From: Lachnospiraceae bacterium
GTDB lineage: Bacteria; Bacillota; Clostridia; Lachnospirales; Lachnospiraceae
Direction: 5' to 3'
DNA: 64,000 nucleotides
NCBI GenBank assembly: GCA_017473115.1
Contig: JAFUNC010000002.1
Span: 1 to 64,000, forward strand
The notes under the pieces are model-generated. The model was given only the letters and a program-made list of their open reading frames with translations. It was not told where the DNA came from and made no database searches. Within the stretch, counting starts at the first letter, position 1; each line of letters opens with the position of its first letter. A program made the translations under genes and the position numbers. Positions 3,249 to 54,708 of this stretch are shown here, piece after piece.

Positions 3249-6200
3249 ATGGGAAATGTAAAACGTATTTATGTTGAGAAGAAGGCTGACTTTGCGGTCA
3301 AAGCAAGTGAGTTAAAAGAAGACCTTAAGAATTACCTTGGTTTAAACAACGTAGAAGAGGTCAAAGTTTTTATACGTTATGACGTGGAAAATTTATCGGA
3401 GGAGATTTTTGACAGAGCATGCAAGACTGTATTTTCTGAGCCCCCTGTTGATAAACTTTTCTTAGAGACAATAGAAGTGCCTGCAAACGGCCGTGTATTC
3501 TCGGTAGAATACTTACCCGGACAGTACGACCAGCGTGCGGACTCTGCAGTGCAGTGTATCCAGTTCTTAAAAGAGGACGAAGAGCCTATTATTAAGACTG
3601 CCATTACATATTTAATCTGCGGTGAATTAAGCGACGCGGATTTCGACAGAATTAAAGCATATTGTATCAACCCTGTAGATTCCAGAGAAACAGGTATGGT
3701 AAAACCTGATACGTTGGTAACAGAGTTTGACGTGCCCGCAGACGTGGCAATTATGGATGATTTTATTACAATGTCAGATGCAGACTTGAAGGCATTATAT
3801 GACAGCCTTGGTCTTGCTATGACTTTTACGGATTTCTGCTTTATCCGCGACCATTTCAAGGAGGATGCAAAGCGTAATCCTTCCATGACAGAAATTAAGG
3901 TACTTGATACCTATTGGTCAGACCACTGCCGTCACACCACATTCTCTACAGAGTTAGAAGATGTAAAATTTGACGAAGGTTTTTATAAGCCTGTTTTGGA
4001 GAAAACATACAACAACTATCTTGAAACCAGAGAAGAAATTTTTGCCGGAAGAGACGACAAGTTCGTTTGTCTTATGGACCTTGCCCTTATGGCAATGCGT
4101 AAGCTTAAAAAAGACGGCAAATTGGAAGATATGGAGAAGTCTGATGAAATCAATGCCTGCTCTATCGTAGTGCCTTTGGAAGTGGACTACAACGACGGCA
4201 AGGGTGTGATTACCGAAGAATGGTTAATCAGTTTCAAGAACGAGACACATAACCATCCTACCGAAATTGAACCCTTCGGTGGTGCGGCAACCTGTCTTGG
4301 CGGTGCAATCCGTGATCCCTTATCAGGCCGTTCTTACGTATACCAGGCAATGCGTGTAACCGGTGCGGCAGATCCTACCGTGCCCATCGCAGAAACCATG
4401 CAGGGCAAACTTTCACAGAAGAAACTGGTAAAAGGTGCAGCAAGCGGTTATTCATCCTACGGTAACCAGATTGGTCTTGCAACCGGTCTTGTAAAAGAAA
4501 TTTATCATCCTAACTACGTTGCAAAACGTATGGAAATCGGTGCTGTTATGGGTGCATCACCCAGACGTAACGTTATTCGTGAAAATTCCGATCCCGGCGA
4601 TATCATCATCTTACTTGGTGGTCGTACAGGTCGTGACGGTTGTGGCGGTGCTACCGGTTCTTCCAAGGTACACACAGTATCCTCTATCGAGACCTGTGGT
4701 GCGGAAGTACAGAAGGGTAACCCTCCTACCGAGCGTAAAATCCAGAGATTGTTCCGTAGAGCGGAAGTCAGCAAGTTAATCAAGAAGTGTAACGACTTTG
4801 GTGCCGGCGGTGTTTCCGTAGCAATCGGTGAATTGGCTGACGGTCTTAGAGTAGAATTGGATAAGGTGCCTAAGAAGTATGAAGGTCTTGACGGTACAGA
4901 ATTGTCTATTTCCGAATCTCAGGAAAGAATGGCAGTCGTGGTTGACCCTAAGGATGTGGATGCATTCCTTGCATATGCTGCAGAAGAAAACTTAGAGGCA
5001 GTTTGCGTGGCAACCGTAACAGAAGAGAAGCGTCTTGTTCTTGTATGGAGAGGCAAGGAAATCGTTAACATTAAGCGTTCCTTCCTTGATACCAACGGTG
5101 CGCATCAGTCTACTAAGGTAGCGGTAGATATGCCGGATGAAAAGGACAATTATTTCAATAAAATTGCCTGCGATGCAGTAGCAGATGCAGTGGCAGAGAA
5201 TGATGTAAAAGCAGCATGGACGGAAAGCGTTCATGATTTGAATACCTGTTCCCAGAAGGGTCTTGTGGAAATGTTTGACTCTTCTATCGGAGCAGGCACC
5301 GTGCTTATGCCTTACGGCGGTAAGCATCAGTTGACAGAAACCCAGACTATGGTAGCAAAGGTTCCCGTTCTTGGCGGTAAGTCAGATGCAGTGACTATGA
5401 TGAGTTATGGCTTTAACCCTTATCTTTCAAGTTGGAGCCCTTACCATGGTGCGGTTTATGCAGTAACCGAATCTATGGCGAAGATTGTGGCAGCAGGCGG
5501 CGATTACAAGAAGATTCGTTTTACTTTCCAGGAATACTTCCGTCGTATGACAGAAGATCCTTACAGATGGAGCCAGCCTTTTGCAGCACTTTTAGGTGCA
5601 TATGATGCACAGATGGGTTACGGACTTCCTTCCATCGGCGGTAAGGACAGTATGTCCGGAACCTTCCAGGATATCGACGTACCTCCTACATTGGTTTCTT
5701 TCGCAGTAGATGTGGCTAAGACACAGGATGTAATTACTCCGGAACTTAAGAAAGCCGGCAATAAACTTGTGAAGTTCTCAATCGAGAAGGACGAATATGA
5801 CGTTCCGAAGTACGATAAGGTTATGGCACTTTACGATGCAATTCATGGTTATATGCAGGCTGGCATTGTAGAATCCGCATATGCGTTGGATGCTTATGGT
5901 TTGGTACCTGCAGTAAGTAAAATGGCCTTTGGTAACGGCCTGGGCGTTGCAATGGATGATGCATTGGAATTACCGGCATTGTTTGCAAATGAATTGGGCA
6001 ACATTGTTGTAGAAGTTGCACCCGAAAATGTAGCAAAGATTGCTTGTGACTATACATTGGTTGGTACTGTAACAGACGGAGACTTCTCTTACAAGGGAAC
6101 CGTAATTTCACATGCTGAAATGTTAGATTCCTTTAAGTCGAAATTGGAGAAGGTATTCCCCAGCCGTGTAACTTACGATGATACGAAGATTGATATTCCT

Positions 6201-7043
6201 GAGTACAATGCAAAGGATATCTACATCTGCAAGAATAAGGTAGCAAAACCTCACGTATTCATTCCGGTAATGCCCGGAACCAACTGCGAATATGACAGTA
6301 CCGCAGCATTTGAGCGTGCAGGAGCAACCGTAACAACAGGAATCTTTAGAAACTTAAGCGCAAGCGATATCAGAGAGTCTGTTGATATGTATGTAAAAGA
6401 AATTGCTAAGGCACAAATTATTATGTTCCCCGGCGGTTTCTCAGCAGGTGATGAGCCTGACGGTAGTGCGAAGTTCTTTGCAACTGCATTCCAGAACGAA
6501 GCATTAAAAGAAGCAGTTATGAAGTTATTAAACGAAAGAGACGGTTTGGCACTCGGTATCTGTAACGGTTTCCAGGCACTCATTAAGTTAGGTTTGGTAC
6601 CGTTCGGTGAGATTGTGGGACAGACAGAAGATTCACCTACATTGACTTTTAACACCATTAACCGTCACATCTCTAAGATGGCGTATACCAAGGTTGTTTC
6701 CAACAAGTCACCCTGGTTACAGTTGGCAGAGGTTGGTAAGACCTATACAAGCCCCGCTTCCCATGGTGAAGGACGTTTCGTAGCACCTAAGGAGTGGATT
6801 GAAAAGTTGGCTGCTAACGGACAGATTGCAACCCAGTATGCAGACCCGGACGGCAATGTAAGCATGGACGAAGAATACAACATCAACGGTTCTTACGCAT
6901 CCATCGAAGGTATTACATCACCTGACGGAAGATGCTTTGGTAAGATGGCACACGCAGAACGTCGCGGCGACGGTGTGGCTATCAACATCTACGGCGAACA
7001 GGATCTTAAGATCTTCGAATCCGGCGTAAAATACTTTATGTAA
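3249..7043 (+). CDS. purL: Phosphoribosylformylglycinamidine synthase, single-chain
   Basis: A 1264-residue enzyme making FGAM from FGAR, ATP and glutamine in de novo purine synthesis. It is the single-chain form with synthetase halves and a C-terminal class I glutaminase domain (about residues 1000-1264). Visible motifs: DHCRHTTF near residue 230, ETHNHPTEIEPFGGAAT, the nucleophile in GICNGFQ (Cys about 1105), and ASHGEGRF with the glutaminase His/Glu. The start has GGAGG 10 bp upstream. Its own promoter lies before it and a strong terminator after it, so it appears monocistronic. The length and layout match the Firmicutes clade of long PurL rather than the PurS/L/Q split form. Confidence 0.97.
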   Translation: MGNVKRIYVEKKADFAVKASELKEDLKNYLGLNNVEEVKVFIRYDVENLSEEIFDRACKTVFSEPPVDKLFLETIEVPANGRVFSVEYLPGQYDQRADSAVQCIQFLKEDEEPIIKTAITYLICGELSDADFDRIKAYCINPVDSRETGMVKPDTLVTEFDVPADVAIMDDFITMSDADLKALYDSLGLAMTFTDFCFIRDHFKEDAKRNPSMTEIKVLDTYWSDHCRHTTFSTELEDVKFDEGFYKPVLEKTYNNYLETREEIFAGRDDKFVCLMDLALMAMRKLKKDGKLEDMEKSDEINACSIVVPLEVDYNDGKGVITEEWLISFKNETHNHPTEIEPFGGAATCLGGAIRDPLSGRSYVYQAMRVTGAADPTVPIAETMQGKLSQKKLVKGAASGYSSYGNQIGLATGLVKEIYHPNYVAKRMEIGAVMGASPRRNVIRENSDPGDIIILLGGRTGRDGCGGATGSSKVHTVSSIETCGAEVQKGNPPTERKIQRLFRRAEVSKLIKKCNDFGAGGVSVAIGELADGLRVELDKVPKKYEGLDGTELSISESQERMAVVVDPKDVDAFLAYAAEENLEAVCVATVTEEKRLVLVWRGKEIVNIKRSFLDTNGAHQSTKVAVDMPDEKDNYFNKIACDAVADAVAENDVKAAWTESVHDLNTCSQKGLVEMFDSSIGAGTVLMPYGGKHQLTETQTMVAKVPVLGGKSDAVTMMSYGFNPYLSSWSPYHGAVYAVTESMAKIVAAGGDYKKIRFTFQEYFRRMTEDPYRWSQPFAALLGAYDAQMGYGLPSIGGKDSMSGTFQDIDVPPTLVSFAVDVAKTQDVITPELKKAGNKLVKFSIEKDEYDVPKYDKVMALYDAIHGYMQAGIVESAYALDAYGLVPAVSKMAFGNGLGVAMDDALELPALFANELGNIVVEVAPENVAKIACDYTLVGTVTDGDFSYKGTVISHAEMLDSFKSKLEKVFPSRVTYDDTKIDIPEYNAKDIYICKNKVAKPHVFIPVMPGTNCEYDSTAAFERAGATVTTGIFRNLSASDIRESVDMYVKEIAKAQIIMFPGGFSAGDEPDGSAKFFATAFQNEALKEAVMKLLNERDGLALGICNGFQALIKLGLVPFGEIVGQTEDSPTLTFNTINRHISKMAYTKVVSNKSPWLQLAEVGKTYTSPASHGEGRFVAPKEWIEKLAANGQIATQYADPDGNVSMDEEYNINGSYASIEGITSPDGRCFGKMAHAERRGDGVAINIYGEQDLKIFESGVKYFM

Positions 7044-7102: not shown

Positions 7103-7318
7103 TGTAATTCGTTTCGTTGGCTTGGTTCACTTAGATTGTATGGATTATTTTATATTCCAACAGAACACGCTCCCGCTCGTTCGACTGATGTAGCAGTACT
7201 AAACTCGCAGTGCATTACATTTCTGCTCGTTAAGTGCTGACACAGTCGAAAACGGTTCTTTATGGAATATAAAATATCCATACAATGTAGGTTATTAAAA
7301 CAACAAAACGAATTGTAA
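7103..7318. repeat. Nested-palindrome intergenic repeat, copy 1
   Basis: About 215 bp of nested inverted repeats. Outer arms are AATTCGTTTCGTTG (7106-7119) and its near complement (7301-7314). Middle arms are at 7135-7158 and 7264-7286, containing ATTATTTTATATTCC and its complement. A central imperfect hairpin runs 7192-7241. Related copies lie at 53109-53324 and 54483-54708. Middle and central parts are conserved between copies, while outer arms differ but keep pairing. This copy sits between two convergent genes. No ORF is present. Confidence 0.85.
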
Positions 7319-7343: not shown

Positions 7344-9851
7344 TTATTTCTTCTTTTTTAACTTTAATAATTGACAAACAGATTTCAAGGAAGATTGGAA
7401 TTGTCCGTATTCTTCTGCTGTCATTTTAGCAGGAGCGTAAAGTGATTTTTCTACCAATACAAATAAGTGATTGATTTCATCGGTTTGTTCCTGCGTTAAG
7501 TCTAAATGTGCCAGCGCGTCTTTCAGATGTGCACATAACTCATCCGGCAGGGGATTGGGGTTGTCAAAGGCTTTTTTAGCCCGTATTTTTTGACAAAGGC
7601 TTAAATAGTCTTCATACACGATTGCGGCGTAATTTGCGGCCTTTAAGAGTTTCTTGCGCCGATATACGCGGTACAGGCGGTTTCCTGCAAATATAAGTCC
7701 GATAACACCGATGACACAAGCCAGCATAATCAGGAACGGTGTCGCGGATGTTTTAAAGGTAAAAGTGAACATGGACAATTCGTTTTGCTCCAATTCGGTT
7801 TCGTCATAATTCGTCATGTTGTTAACGGGAAGTTCCATAGAGAACAAATTGTCAAACAAACCACCGAAATTGAAGTTGAGCGGTGTCTCATCCATAAAGT
7901 CGGGCGGTGTCATTTCGAAAGGAACGAATCCGTAACCTTCCAAATAGATTTCCACCCAGGCGTGAGCCTGTGCATCCGTAACATCTACGGTAAGGACACC
8001 TTCTTCTGTTACTTGAGTAGGACCCTGGTACCATTCGCTGTAAGGAGCATTTACGGCCTGACCTTCTGACATTACCGATAAGGGAATGCAGTAGCCTTCC
8101 ACATAGCGGGCAGGAATTCCCATGGTTCGTAATAACATGGTTCCGGAAGCGGCAAAGTGTGCGCACACGCCGCGCTTCTGTGCGGTTAAAAAGTATTCTA
8201 CAAAATCCCGTCGGTAGGGTGTGGTACCCGGCGACATGGTATAGTCAAAATCAGCCACAAAATGTTCGTAAACAGCCTGGGCAACGGCCAGACGATAGGC
8301 ATTGATATCTTCCGGGTCTACAGTGGCTTCCGTAAATTCGCCGCTGACAATGCCGGGGAATTCCTGTTCGGAACAGTATTGTTCCAGTGCGGGACGCAAA
8401 TCGTCCGGAATCTGCAGACAAAATTGGTTTACATAAAAATCATAATACTCCGGCAAATCATAAGCGCTTACCGTTTCATCATAATGTCCCATATAAGGGG
8501 TATAAGATACCATTACAGTCTGACTGTCGCTCATTACGCAGTCATCGGAAGAAGAATAGTAAGGATAAAACACCTCATTGCCGGCATCCACGTTGATGAT
8601 TTCCATTTTGCCGGCGGAATCGGTTGCCGGTTTGTATTGTGCATCATATTCAGCAATGACATCTGCTGTCATATACACGGCATTTTCGGAAGAAATCATA
8701 GCAGAAGAAGCAAGGACTTCTTCCGGAAGGGCAGTCATTGCATCCGGCCAGGTACTTAAGTAGGCATGCTCCATCCATTGATTACCGGCATAATGACTTC
8801 CCGTAAAACTTTTCAGGTATACGGTCTTATAAGAATAGGGTGCAAATGTTACGGTCAGGTCTGTTTCGAAGTCGGGGCGGATTGCACTGACGCCACCCAG
8901 TCGTCCGTGATTCAAACCGCCGGTGGAATCATAGCGATCCAATAATCCCGTGAAACCGCTCTGTACAAATGTTTTAACATACTCATCCGTTTTAGCTTTA
9001 ATCGCATTGGTGGGCTGTATGGGCACTTCGGCATAATAAGAATTATAAAAGCCAAAGCCCAGTAATACAGAAAGTAAAGCAGAGAACAGGAGAGTTTGTA
9101 AGGTACCCTTGGCCGTACTCTGATACGTATAAGTTGTGGTATTTTTACGCCGGAAACGTAAATATTCCGGGGTATGTTTTCCTTTTACCTGCATTTTAAA
9201 ATGCCTGCCGGCCTGCTGGATTCCTACGCAAATATATGCGGTTAACAACATCATAAGACAATAAAGAGGAGGTCTTTTTTCGATGTAGAAGGCGATTTCC
9301 AGGAACGGAAACGTAATCAGTATGGTTTCCAAAAGATTCATATATCCGGAAATGGTTACGTTTAAAAGAATTGCCAGAAAAGCACCGACTAAAATCATGG
9401 CAACGGTTACGGTCAGATAACGGTTTTCAATCAACTCCTGTGCTTCTCGCAGGGAAAGTAATTTGAAATAGTCGGAGTACTCTTCGTAAACAATGTTGGT
9501 AACGGCCTGAAAACCACTGTTTGCGTAAGGGTAGTAGCGCACCAGTTCGTACGTAAAGCCGAACAGCAGTGCAAAGTAACCGATATAAAAGACGATTTTA
9601 TTAATATAGAGGAAAGATGCCACAAGCGAGAGAATCAGGAATGCAAGGGTGACCGCCGTGGAGTTAAAAGGAATATCAAAGGCTTTTATCACGCCCACGA
9701 TGGAACCGTAGCACGCCAAAAACACCATCAGTCCGCGGAACAGACAGATGAGAAAACGGTTCAACCCGTCCTGATTGTGGATGGCACCCACATAGAGACC
9801 GGTTTGCGCCAGTTCTTTGGTTTTATTTCTTTTTTCAAAGAAAGGAAACAT
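7344..9851 (-). CDS. Membrane transglutaminase-like (TgpA-type) protein
   Basis: An 835-residue protein with a polytopic N-terminal region (about six membrane segments within residues 25-200), a large extracytoplasmic part with a transglutaminase-like domain, a late membrane segment near residue 700 and a cytoplasmic tail. The catalytic Cys is visible in RGVCAHFAASG (about residue 563), with the downstream HAWVEIYLEGYGFVPF segment giving the His; the Asp is likely nearby. It is the last gene of a moxR-DUF58-transglutaminase operon, a common bacterial triad thought to act on envelope proteins or peptides. Its ribosome binding site overlaps the stop of the DUF58 gene. The substrate is not known. 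Confidence 0.9.
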   Translation of the reverse strand: MFPFFEKRNKTKELAQTGLYVGAIHNQDGLNRFLICLFRGLMVFLACYGSIVGVIKAFDIPFNSTAVTLAFLILSLVASFLYINKIVFYIGYFALLFGFTYELVRYYPYANSGFQAVTNIVYEEYSDYFKLLSLREAQELIENRYLTVTVAMILVGAFLAILLNVTISGYMNLLETILITFPFLEIAFYIEKRPPLYCLMMLLTAYICVGIQQAGRHFKMQVKGKHTPEYLRFRRKNTTTYTYQSTAKGTLQTLLFSALLSVLLGFGFYNSYYAEVPIQPTNAIKAKTDEYVKTFVQSGFTGLLDRYDSTGGLNHGRLGGVSAIRPDFETDLTVTFAPYSYKTVYLKSFTGSHYAGNQWMEHAYLSTWPDAMTALPEEVLASSAMISSENAVYMTADVIAEYDAQYKPATDSAGKMEIINVDAGNEVFYPYYSSSDDCVMSDSQTVMVSYTPYMGHYDETVSAYDLPEYYDFYVNQFCLQIPDDLRPALEQYCSEQEFPGIVSGEFTEATVDPEDINAYRLAVAQAVYEHFVADFDYTMSPGTTPYRRDFVEYFLTAQKRGVCAHFAASGTMLLRTMGIPARYVEGYCIPLSVMSEGQAVNAPYSEWYQGPTQVTEEGVLTVDVTDAQAHAWVEIYLEGYGFVPFEMTPPDFMDETPLNFNFGGLFDNLFSMELPVNNMTNYDETELEQNELSMFTFTFKTSATPFLIMLACVIGVIGLIFAGNRLYRVYRRKKLLKAANYAAIVYEDYLSLCQKIRAKKAFDNPNPLPDELCAHLKDALAHLDLTQEQTDEINHLFVLVEKSLYAPAKMTAEEYGQFQSSLKSVCQLLKLKKKK

Positions 9852-30826: not shown

Positions 30827-30893
30827 ATCCCGAAAGCGGTGGTGAAAAAGGTAAGTCACGGGTCCGATTCCCGTTAGCAGCTGCTTTCGGGAT
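30827..30893. repeat. Hairpin carrying a tRNA-Thr 3' fragment
   Basis: Perfect 11 bp arms ATCCCGAAAGC (30827-30837) and GCTTTCGGGAT (30883-30893) enclose a 29-base stretch (30855-30883) identical to the 3' end of the tRNA-Thr gene 174 bp downstream (31029-31057). It follows ddh and probably served as its terminator before the tRNA piece entered the loop. Only the 3' part is present, so it is not a second tRNA. Confidence 0.8.
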
Positions 30894-30983: not shown

Positions 30984-31056
30984 GCTGCTATGGCTCAGTC
31001 GGTAGAGCGTCGCATTGGTAGTGCGGAGGTCACGGGTCCGATTCCCGTTAGCAGCT
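30984..31056 (+). tRNA. tRNA-Thr (anticodon GGT)
   Basis: Acceptor GCTGCTA pairs with TAGCAGC, D stem GCTC/GAGC, anticodon loop TTGGTAG, T loop TCCGATT, T stem ACGGG/CCCGT. The discriminator base is T and CCA is not encoded. The T loop begins TCC rather than the usual TTC, a small oddity. Confidence 0.9.
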
Positions 31057-31057
31057 G

Positions 31058-51242: not shown

Positions 51243-52250
51243 ATGATTATCGTATTAAAATCAAACCCCAATCCCGAACAGTATGAGCAGTTAAAGAAAT
51301 GGTTAGAAGACAAAGGTCTTGATATCCACAAAACACAGGGTATCCATTCCACTATTTTAGGTCTTGTAGGCGATACTTCCAAGGTAGATATCGATCTGGT
51401 ATCCGCTATGGAAATCGTAGATACCGTTAAACGTATTCAGGAACCTTACAAGGCTGCAAATCGTAAGTTCCATCCTTTGGATACTGAAATTACCGTTGAG
51501 AATACCAAAATCGGTGCGGGACATTTTGCAATGATTGCAGGTCCTTGTTCTGTAGAAACAGAAGAGCAGATCATCGGTATTGCCAAAGCAGTAAAAGCAG
51601 CGGGTGCAACCATGCTTCGCGGCGGTGCATTTAAGCCCCGTACTTCACCCTATGCATTCCAGGGCTTGGGCGGCGATGGTATCAAACTTTTATTGGAAGC
51701 AAAGAAAGAGACAGGACTTCCTATTGTTACCGAAATTATGGACTTATCCCAGCTTGATTTGTTCGAAGAAGTAGACGTAATCCAGGTTGGCGCAAGAAAC
51801 ATGCAGAACTTCCAGTTGTTAAAAGAATTGGGTCATACCAAGAAGCCGATTCTTTTAAAGAGAGGTTTATCAAGCACCATTCAGGAATTATTGATGAGCG
51901 CGGAATACATTATGGCAGGCGGTAACGAAGACGTTATTCTTTGTGAAAGAGGTATCAGAACCTTCGAGACTGCAACCAGAAATACCCTTGACATTTCAGC
52001 AGTACCTGTTTTAAAAGAAAAGACACACTTACCGATTGTCATTGACCCTTCACATTCTACGGGTTATTCTAAATATGTAAAATCTATGTGCTATGCTTCT
52101 ACAGCAGCAGGCGCAGACGGTTTAATTATTGAAGTGCACAACGATCCTGCAAAGGCATGGTGCGATGGCCAGCAGTCTATTACACCTGCGGCATTTGAAG
52201 AAATCAATCGTGGTGTACAGTTGATTAGAGAGGACGTTTTAAAATTATGA
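51243..52250 (+). CDS. aroF: DAHP synthase, type I-beta
   Basis: A 335-residue enzyme joining phosphoenolpyruvate and erythrose 4-phosphate, the first step of the shikimate pathway. Residues 1-70 form the ferredoxin-like regulatory domain of the type I-beta form, which can mediate feedback inhibition by Tyr/Phe; the barrel follows with AGPCSVET, LRGGAFKPRTSPYAFQG and IDPSHSTG. AAGGAG lies 8 bp upstream. It is the first gene after the Phe/Tyr attenuator, and its stop overlaps the tyrA start by four bases (ATGA), so translation is coupled. Confidence 0.96.
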   Translation: MIIVLKSNPNPEQYEQLKKWLEDKGLDIHKTQGIHSTILGLVGDTSKVDIDLVSAMEIVDTVKRIQEPYKAANRKFHPLDTEITVENTKIGAGHFAMIAGPCSVETEEQIIGIAKAVKAAGATMLRGGAFKPRTSPYAFQGLGGDGIKLLLEAKKETGLPIVTEIMDLSQLDLFEEVDVIQVGARNMQNFQLLKELGHTKKPILLKRGLSSTIQELLMSAEYIMAGGNEDVILCERGIRTFETATRNTLDISAVPVLKEKTHLPIVIDPSHSTGYSKYVKSMCYASTAAGADGLIIEVHNDPAKAWCDGQQSITPAAFEEINRGVQLIREDVLKL

Positions 52251-53131
52251 TAAAAACAGTAGGAATCGTTGGTCTGGGTCTGATTGGAGGGTCCATGGCC
52301 AAGACGGTTCGTGAAACCACTACCTGTAAAATTTATGCCTGCAACCGAAGTAAAAATATTGTGGAACAGGCAATTGCCGAAGATGTCATCCACGGCGAAT
52401 TAAACGCAGATACCTTAAAAGAGTGCGATTTGCTGATTTTAAATTTGTATGCGCGAAGAAATATTGAGTATGTGAAAGATAATATTTCTTTTATAAAAAA
52501 GGGCGCGGTTTTGGTGGACAGTACCGGAATTAAAGGCAGTGTGTGCGAGGAACTTTCGGATTTCTGTGAGGAAAACGGCGTACACTTTATCGGTGGACAT
52601 CCGATGGCCGGCATTGAGAAGTCGGGGTATCAGTATTCGTTTTTTGGGTTATTCAATAACGCGACGATGATTCTTTGTAAGGATCACAATACGGATGAAG
52701 CATTGTTTGAGGAAACGAAAGAATTCTTTCTGAGACTAGGCTTTGGCAAGATCAGAGTTACCACGGCGGCAGAACATGATGCGGTGATTGCTTATACATC
52801 CCAGATGGCCCATTTGGTATCCAGCGCGTATATAAAAAGCCCTACCTGCGAGAAGAGATACGGTTTCTCGGCCGGTAGTTTTAAGGATTTGACCAGAGTT
52901 GCATACTTAAATGAAGATATGTGGACGGAACTGTTTGCAGAGAATCGTGAGCATTTGTTGGCAGAGTTGGATGTCTTCATCAAGAATGTTCAGGATTATC
53001 GTGAAGTTTTGGCGGCAGAGGATTATAATAGTTTACATAAAATGCTTGCTGAGGGACGTATTTGTAAAGAAAACGATAATCGACGCGAGGAAGAGTACAA
53101 GGCAGGGAATAATTCGTCTGTTTGTGGGTAG
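52247..53131 (+). CDS. tyrA: Prephenate dehydrogenase
   Basis: A 294-residue NAD-dependent enzyme converting prephenate to 4-hydroxyphenylpyruvate for Tyr. The nucleotide-binding GLGLIGGSMAK begins at residue 8; the catalytic His region HPMAGIEKSG and the late TRVA segment are present. There is no ACT domain. The last few codons (about the final seven residues, ending SSVCG) are encoded by the left outer arm of repeat copy 2, so the C-terminal tail appears to come from the repeat. It overlaps aroF by four bases. Confidence 0.94.
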   Translation: MIKTVGIVGLGLIGGSMAKTVRETTTCKIYACNRSKNIVEQAIAEDVIHGELNADTLKECDLLILNLYARRNIEYVKDNISFIKKGAVLVDSTGIKGSVCEELSDFCEENGVHFIGGHPMAGIEKSGYQYSFFGLFNNATMILCKDHNTDEALFEETKEFFLRLGFGKIRVTTAAEHDAVIAYTSQMAHLVSSAYIKSPTCEKRYGFSAGSFKDLTRVAYLNEDMWTELFAENREHLLAELDVFIKNVQDYREVLAAEDYNSLHKMLAEGRICKENDNRREEEYKAGNNSSVCG

Positions 53132-53324
53132 TTTGTGGTGGCTGTGCAGATTATTTTATATTCCGACAGAAGGCGCTCTCGCTCGATTGTGAATGTAGCG
53201 GCACTAAACTCGTGCTTCATTGTATTTGCACTCGTTAAGTGCCGACACTCACAAAACGGTTCTTTACGGAATAAAAATATCTACACAGCAATGCAGTATA
53301 ATAAAGGACAAACAGACGAATTGT
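53109..53324. repeat. Nested-palindrome intergenic repeat, copy 2
   Basis: Outer arms AATTCGTCTGTTTGT (53111-53125) and its perfect complement (53308-53322); middle arms 53141-53164 and 53268-53289; central hairpin CGGCACTAAACTCGTGC (53199-53215) with 53228-53244. It starts inside the end of tyrA and lies between tyrA and aroB. Confidence 0.88.
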
Positions 53325-54482: not shown

Positions 54483-54708
54483 GTCTCAATTTGCTTATTT
54501 GTATGGGCGTTATATAAATTGTCGCGTAGATTATTTTACATTCCAATAGGACACGCTCTCGCTCGATTGTGAATGTAACGGACACTAAACTCGTGCCACA
54601 TTACATTTGCACTCGTTAAGTGCCGACACTCACAAAAAGGTCCTTTATGGAATGAAAATATCTACGCAACATTACTTTTATGATAAATACAAATAAACAA
54701 ATTGAGAC
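54483..54708. repeat. Nested-palindrome intergenic repeat, copy 3
   Basis: Outer arms of 21 bp (54483-54503 with 54688-54708, one mismatch) start GTCTCAATTTG, unlike the other copies; middle arms 54524-54544 and 54649-54667; central hairpin about 54578-54627. It lies 7 bp after the aroB stop and before aroA. Confidence 0.88.

Follow-up and report, generated by a model that had tools for sequence, protein, structure and literature searches.

The window, which here means the whole 64,000-nucleotide stretch of Lachnospiraceae DNA that was analyzed, contains three nested palindromes, located at 7103-7318, 53109-53324 and 54483-54708 as reported in a preliminary description of the sequence. The first copy lies between a purL-like gene (3249-7043, plus strand) and a minus-strand gene (7344-9851). 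The second overlaps the end of a tyrA-like frame and precedes an aroB-like gene, and the third lies between the aroB-like gene and an aroA-like gene (these four gene names come from reading the translations by eye). In the first copy, a core (7154-7268) is enclosed by a left arm (7105-7153), made of an outer arm, a spacer and a middle arm, and by a right arm (7269-7316) that is complementary to the left arm for the most part. The cores of the second and third copies occupy positions 53160-53272 and 54540-54653. Each core contains a short side hairpin with a GNRA loop, and in all three copies the strand that carries it is the minus strand; in the first copy it lies at 7168-7179 and reads CGAGC-GGGA-GCG, with GGGA as its loop. 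The middle arm and central hairpin that had been described as common to the three copies correspond to our repeat families D2 and D3.

Folding of the first copy gave -85.5 kcal/mol, compared with -41.45 ± 4.05 for its shuffles (z = -10.9; none of the 200 shuffles was as good). The shuffle test covered this copy only, and the second and third copies were folded with their flanks and without shuffles.

Some other features of the window were recorded along the way. The last residues of the tyrA-like frame (52247-53131), AGNNSSVCG, come from the second palindrome, and relatives free of the element end otherwise. The 10-mer GTTTACATAA, which is not part of the palindrome, occurs 15 times on both strands (0.29 expected; none of 100 shuffles reaches 15), for instance at 8427, 28041, 38770, 38803, 53372, 62629 and 62693, and several of these places are just before genes. 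The 3' end of a tRNA gene at 30984-31056 (positions 31029-31057) is repeated exactly 174 bases upstream (30855-30883); this repeat resembles a piece of the tRNA, or else an attachment site left from the past.

Size and range of the family

The three palindromes are real, but they belong to a much bigger family than the three copies first presented. DNA similarity finds 28 places in the genome of the window (2.23 Mb, 85% complete; hereafter G000). The first alignment comprised 27 of these, a degenerate copy (L041) being left out. The preliminary description had suggested collecting genomic copies with a covariance model; R1, a covariance model of the core with 27 sequences and 36 pairs, gives 45 matches in G000, and the core of the first copy scores 126.2 bits. 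Within the genus, 27 of the 31 genomes (G000 included) have R1 matches, between 1 and 58 each, and four have none. Within the family Lachnospiraceae, matches occur in 65 of 150 genomes, G000 included, with at most 25 candidates scored per genome. From the class we drew 391 genomes, 16 of which are, by an ordering on kinship, members of the same family; nine had matches, all in that family. None of the 375 class genomes outside the family had R1 matches, at a sensitivity reduced by scoring only nine candidates per genome (nine of the 45 in G000 itself).

An exact-pattern scan of named genomes returned at least 118 stretches. Among the 80 scan matches listed, all were Lachnospiraceae or had names such as Butyrivibrio, Agathobacter, Eubacterium, Clostridium or uncultured Clostridiales, and it is from these names that we take the family to be Lachnospiraceae. 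One 146-base query, taken from the second copy, matched none of 50,697 phage and 72,556 plasmid records. The element had no match above any family cut-off in Rfam 15, which was applied to the window at the gathering threshold and to the second copy, 20 related loci, part of locus L072 and eight short-hairpin loci at E-value thresholds. The only hits were to microRNA hairpin models, and these scored far under their cut-off (MIR2646, 13.6 and 27.2 bits versus 245). The Clostridiales-1 RNA (RF01699) is a structured RNA of related bacteria that lies near copies at L072 and L080 (below cut-off) and L210 (above cut-off), but it is outside the element and does not match the core.

A shorter version of the central hairpin, CACTTARYGAG-loop-CGARYTTAGTG, was also observed, singly or in tandem (L220, 2653-2739; L174, 6104-6226; L242, 3158-3281; L227, 3079-3154; L195, 4138-4168; L240, 739-768; L210, 4896-4925). 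Several of these hairpins are near a TATAAT-like box or immediately precede a gene, and the one at L240 is placed between a T-box leader and a gene that resembles valS by eye. The core may have originated from this short form, or the two may be separate motifs.

Pairing in the cores and in the arms

The core, about 115 bases long, is predicted to fold on one strand as a three-way junction, in which a stem at the base meets a long stem, interrupted by a bulge and the fixed GA/GA mismatch, and the short side hairpin (CGAGC-loop-GCG on the minus strand of the window). All 27 aligned copies of G000 have a GNRA side loop (GAGA in 16, GCGA and GGAA in three each, GGGA and GAAA in two each, GCAA in one). 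Three model-fitted alignments yielded 206 distinct cores, 200 of which have a four-base loop, and 197 of those loops are GNRA; in an earlier loop count, the second position was never T. The GA/GA double mismatch is kept in 26 of the 27 G000 copies, and the pairs adjoining it change together.

A statistical test of covariation, another step proposed in the preliminary description, gave a clear result for the core: double changes were present in 27 of the 36 pairs and none of 500 shuffles reached the score, in an alignment that was fitted to the structure and is hence biased towards it. Across 51 distinct rows from G000 and its sister species G001, 94.8% of the core cells were paired versus 82.4% in shuffles. 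As a control, sliding the pairing partners in the rows of these two genomes abolished the covariation. The count of further pair types in the core was not exceptional, since 46 of the 500 shuffles reached it. Canonical core pairs show G.U in 76 unique contexts and A.C in 35 (80 versus 36 before merging shared copies), a count that sets aside non-canonical pairs and misaligned columns. Over all 36 pairs the two are equal (203 G.U, 191 A.C), mainly owing to a single column that is C.A in 117 of the 206 cores; this column suits the opposite strand better than the GNRA strand. As far as the letters can tell, the folded strand could be either RNA or single-stranded DNA. Stable DNA hairpins might have a similar class of loop.

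One explanation is that the elements are functional non-coding RNAs. The GNRA strand would be transcribed from each copy and serve the cell, selection on the RNA would keep arms and core paired, and ordinary recombination would homogenize the cores. The near-invariant GNRA loop, the GA/GA motif, the excess of G.U in canonical core pairs and the strong covariation are all in its favor. However, copies lie antisense to both neighboring genes about as often as sense (67 versus 56; the remaining pairs of neighbors face the element in 34 cases and face away in 23). These figures cover the 180 copies, of 202, that have two neighbors, taken as open frames of at least 70 codons, and reveal no clear preference of the element's direction relative to genes; 41 of the 202 copies overlap an open frame of that length, real or not. 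Further points against this explanation are that copy number varies from 0 to 58 inside one genus, that no shared promoter is visible by eye beside the core in the alignment, and that the arms, as described below, have no G.U excess. We consider a functional RNA to be an improbable account.

The outer arms had been described as specific to each copy and complementary within it. They do differ among copies and pair within each, but they are not unrelated, as part of them have RATTYG/CRAATY in common. RATTYG is present in the outer 5' arm of 14 of 29 G000 copies (1.8 expected from shuffles), CRAATY in the outer 3' arm of 11 (2.3 expected), and both in 10. To some extent at least, the outer arms of G000 appear to be divergent forms of one terminus; between the arms of different genera we saw by eye no obvious shared end. 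The expectation that all copies of a simple MITE would end alike holds in part, the termini here being related but diverged. Shared and diverged termini are also what an ordinary MITE of a DDE-type transposon would have, with the arms as terminal inverted repeats that diverged with age and the core as the inside of the element.

The arms change in matched pairs, as had been claimed. At 18 orthologous loci of four species (G000, G001 and two further genomes of the genus, G172 and G178), we followed 727 Watson-Crick pairs of the reference copy. Both sides had changed to another Watson-Crick pair in 27 of them, compared with 7.07 ± 2.17 (maximum 15) in 2000 permutations of the 3' letters. In total, 38 pairs had changed at both of their positions and 71 at a single position. 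A previous count had drawn on 24 comparisons, some of them at the same locus, and had required pairing in both copies; it found 29 compensated and 69 single-sided changes, with 359 further positions not paired alike in the two copies. The single-sided changes included 16 to G.U, 19 to A.C and 25 to another mismatch, and 26 of the 29 compensated changes were transitions. Matched changes sometimes cluster, for instance three at L021/L058. The arms are constrained to pair and hardly constrained in sequence.

Isolated mismatches in the arms of 202 copies comprise 37 G.U and 34 A.C, where isolated means flanked by three pairs on each side, and arms of fewer than 20 aligned bases were skipped; because such mismatches are few, the power of this comparison is limited. 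Since the two are equal, the arms prefer wobble pairs on neither strand. An apparent bias towards the opposite strand in unfiltered counts (179 G.U versus 300 A.C) was discarded, as it disappeared once only isolated mismatches within the helix were counted.

Equality of G.U and A.C is predicted by rewriting of one arm from the other at the DNA level and not by RNA selection on one strand. Template switching, a mechanism known from replication studies, can use one side of a stem to rewrite its partner and thereby introduce matched changes at once. PMC8794818 describes such mutations for RNA genes; here we invoke them, by analogy, for the arms of mobile palindromes. This strand-symmetric process would keep the arms complementary with or without selection for the hairpin. 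A point against it is that transitions, which make up most of the compensated changes, are also expected from selection passing through wobble pairs. The preliminary description had suggested selection for a long foldback. For the core this idea agrees with the GNRA loop, the GA/GA motif with its compensated flanks and the surplus of G.U over A.C in canonical pairs, but not for the arms, with their even counts, which a strand-symmetric DNA mechanism fits better than selection for a foldback RNA.

Cores and arms at orthologous sites

We assigned orthologous sites between G000 and G001 by flank matches (aroB is 92% identical between them) and compared 29 G000 copies with 22 of the 58 G001 copies found by the model, 36 being left out. 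For 12 G000 copies the orthologous site in G001 is also filled. The core at these sites does not follow the locus: its nearest relative in G001 is the ortholog at only two of the 12 (L019 and L021). The core of the ortholog is 0.70-0.83 identical at 11 sites and 0.92 at one; that of the best other G000 copy is 0.82-0.98 identical, which is higher at 11 sites and equal at one. The arms mostly follow the locus. Using 40, 50, 60 or 75 bases per side (the last includes some flank), their nearest G001 relative is the ortholog in 10, 11, 10 and 12 of the 12, and this ortholog outranks the best other G000 copy in 9, 9, 10 and 10. The exceptions in this second comparison are L018 and L019 at every width and L014 and L021 at some widths. 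The window contains two examples: the second copy has an outer arm in common with its G001 ortholog, and the third has arms that are 0.97 to 1.00 identical to those of its ortholog, depending on the width compared, and a core that is 0.78 identical.

Eleven G000 copies, including the first copy of the window, form one core cluster that has no member among the 22 G001 copies (best identity 0.83). For cluster members L028, L030 and L034, the G001 core at the same site is 0.77, 0.72 and 0.73 identical; at L019 it is 0.83 identical, which is the nearest that G001 has. Other members occupy sites that lack the element elsewhere, namely L026 (in G001, G172 and G178) and L022 (in G172). At L023, the element is missing from G178, G172 has an arm-like remnant, and G001 has a different hairpin, as judged by eye. 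At L018, G001 and G172 share a core (0.96) from which the G000 core differs, so the change of core probably happened in G000; the arms there also differ more. Some sites keep their core: L021 (0.92), L025 with G172 (1.00), L172 with G172 (0.96), G178 with G172 (0.96), L051 with G178 (0.93) and L165 with G172 (0.91).

A similar picture is seen within one other genome, G106, from which 14 copies were fetched. Among the 13 that are distinct, the median core identity is 0.97 (minimum 0.87). Their arms have a median identity of 0.56 (maximum 0.70), and pairing is kept within each copy. We looked in G106 for identical cores inserted into pre-existing empty palindromes and found no support among three core-less, arm-like places. 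By eye, two of these (L142 and L144) look like deletion relics and one (L143) lies in a coding-looking run.

The ordinary-MITE explanation is difficult to reconcile with these comparisons, because the core and arms of an old element should age together, whereas here the arms follow the locus at 10-12 of 12 sites and the cores at two, and because the arms change in matched pairs. It has in its favor, besides the diverged termini, the mostly intergenic dispersal, the outward-only pairs described below and one clean element-free junction with a possible ATAA duplication, at a degenerate copy. Overall we regard it as doubtful.

We lean, with slightly better than even confidence, towards the view that the elements are one Lachnospiraceae family of non-autonomous mobile palindromes in which the arms are corrected arm-to-arm at the DNA level and the core spreads. 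A core variant would spread by insertion at new sites, and would also replace resident cores by gene conversion within the common part, halted where the arms are unlike. Such conversion appears to be the plainest account of the core exchange. A different possibility is that the core homes onto hairpins: moved as a single-stranded structured nucleic acid by a putative enzyme, it could replace the resident core, and a palindrome-making form of replication would restore the arms locus by locus. The arms would then serve as the address of a site and the core as its exchangeable passenger. We give this version rather little credence.

Cuts by SbcCD were considered as a trigger for the conversion and set aside. 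SbcD is above its family cut-off in eight of the 31 genus genomes and is missing from the three copy-richest (58, 45 and 36 copies); of G012 and G178, each with 18 copies, only the former has it. Only partial SbcD matches were found in G000, G001, G172 and G178, which are incomplete genomes, and SbcCD cutting is an unlikely trigger in these four.

Dispersal, mobility and known systems

Element-free sites in relatives, which the preliminary description had proposed to look for, were found at both flanks of aroB, at L026, at L022 and at a degenerate copy in G000 (G000:C1:35055). Both aroB flanks, the sites of the second and third copies of the window, lack the element in G172 and G178. At the degenerate copy, G172 has a clean element-free junction with a possible 4-base duplication, ATAA, seen at this one site. 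The G001 ortholog of that copy (L346, G001:C10:15000-15800) has an extra palindromic insert beside its GNRA hairpin, and its arms differ from the G000 arms by matched changes.

Copies at most 1200 bases apart are mostly divergent (37 of 41 pairs), with four in the same direction and none convergent. Two genomes (G067 and G036) contribute 23 of the 37 divergent pairs, which are not independent; the other 14 obey the same rule. In ten spacers between paired copies, the longest open stretch ranges from 10 to 223 codons, and by these lengths we noticed no recurrent frames between divergent copies. The two outward-pointing copies of a pair could be the two ends of a mobile unit, and the single-stranded core could be the recognition mark for a putative enzyme.

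Genome G067 provided further observations by eye. Its loci L107-L119 have two arm types (AAAAATCTC and CGAAACTC) upon similar cores, and the outer ends of its pairs are near GTATACTT, as though each pair had moved as a unit. At L108 (G067:C3:158983-162729), two same-direction copies surround regulator-like and ImmA/IrrE-like frames (also named by eye) that are flanked by long inverted repeats, possibly a cargo-bearing form.

Y1_Tnp was not found in G000 (45 copies, 85% complete), G172 (36 copies, 97%) or G178 (18 copies, 74%), and was found once in G001 (58 copies). No reverse transcriptase was found in G000, G001 or G172, and G178 had one match below cut-off. Among the 31 genus genomes, copy number showed no significant link to Y1 (p = 0.37), reverse transcriptase (p = 0.13) or SbcD (p = 0.54). 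Given that G000 and G172 yielded no Y1 transposase and no reverse transcriptase, movement of the REP type or of the retro type (as for elements derived from retrons or group II introns) is unlikely in these two genomes. As no enzyme was found, the case for mobility rests on the dispersal and the element-free sites.

The elements are of a known kind, the dispersed bacterial palindromic element. Like bacterial MITEs and interspersed palindromic repeats of the BOX, RUP, ERIC and NEMIS/Correia class, they are short, mostly intergenic, multi-copy and bounded by inverted repeats, and they are present or absent at orthologous sites. Unlike that class, they have locus-specific arms with matched changes, cores that differ between orthologous sites, no evident fixed terminus and no known parent transposon. 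They also resemble the REP/BIME elements associated with RAYT transposases, whose hairpins occur in inverted pairs and whose sub-families, according to PMC3733652, have alternative complementary stem residues and frequent GT pairing in the stems. If the elements were REP-type, a Y1 (RAYT/IS200-like) transposase would move them as single-stranded hairpins, and the mismatched hairpins in inverted pairs do recall the REP dimers of that source. However, they are several times longer (about 215 bases versus 20-40 for REPs), their arms show no GT excess, and Y1 was not found in three copy-rich genomes and shows no significant link with copy number, which makes this origin very unlikely. Perfect palindromes in Nematomorpha mitochondria are likewise long inverted repeats kept in related genomes; in the available part of PMC6649704, they are protein-coding, are not described as mobile and have no conserved core, unlike the elements here.

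Among the literature matches listed, the candidates in PMC8040213 aside, none describes this family, and the available part of PMC2267715 does not name Lachnospiraceae. Nor does any of the listed matches report a strand-marked core combined with arms that mostly follow the locus and change in matched pairs, with cores that seem to be exchanged and with outward-only pairs.

Compensation in stems is normally taken as proof of selection on RNA, and here an RNA-like core and unmarked arms stand side by side. With many loci and species and with element-free sites, the family can be used to test mutation by template switching against selection as the source of stem compensation. If cores are exchanged between loci under unlike arms, as they seem to be, this would be an uncommon kind of concerted evolution for bacteria. 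The outward-only pairs suggest a putative mobilizing system in a major family of gut bacteria. The elements can also serve for studying how palindromes are made and maintained in genomes.
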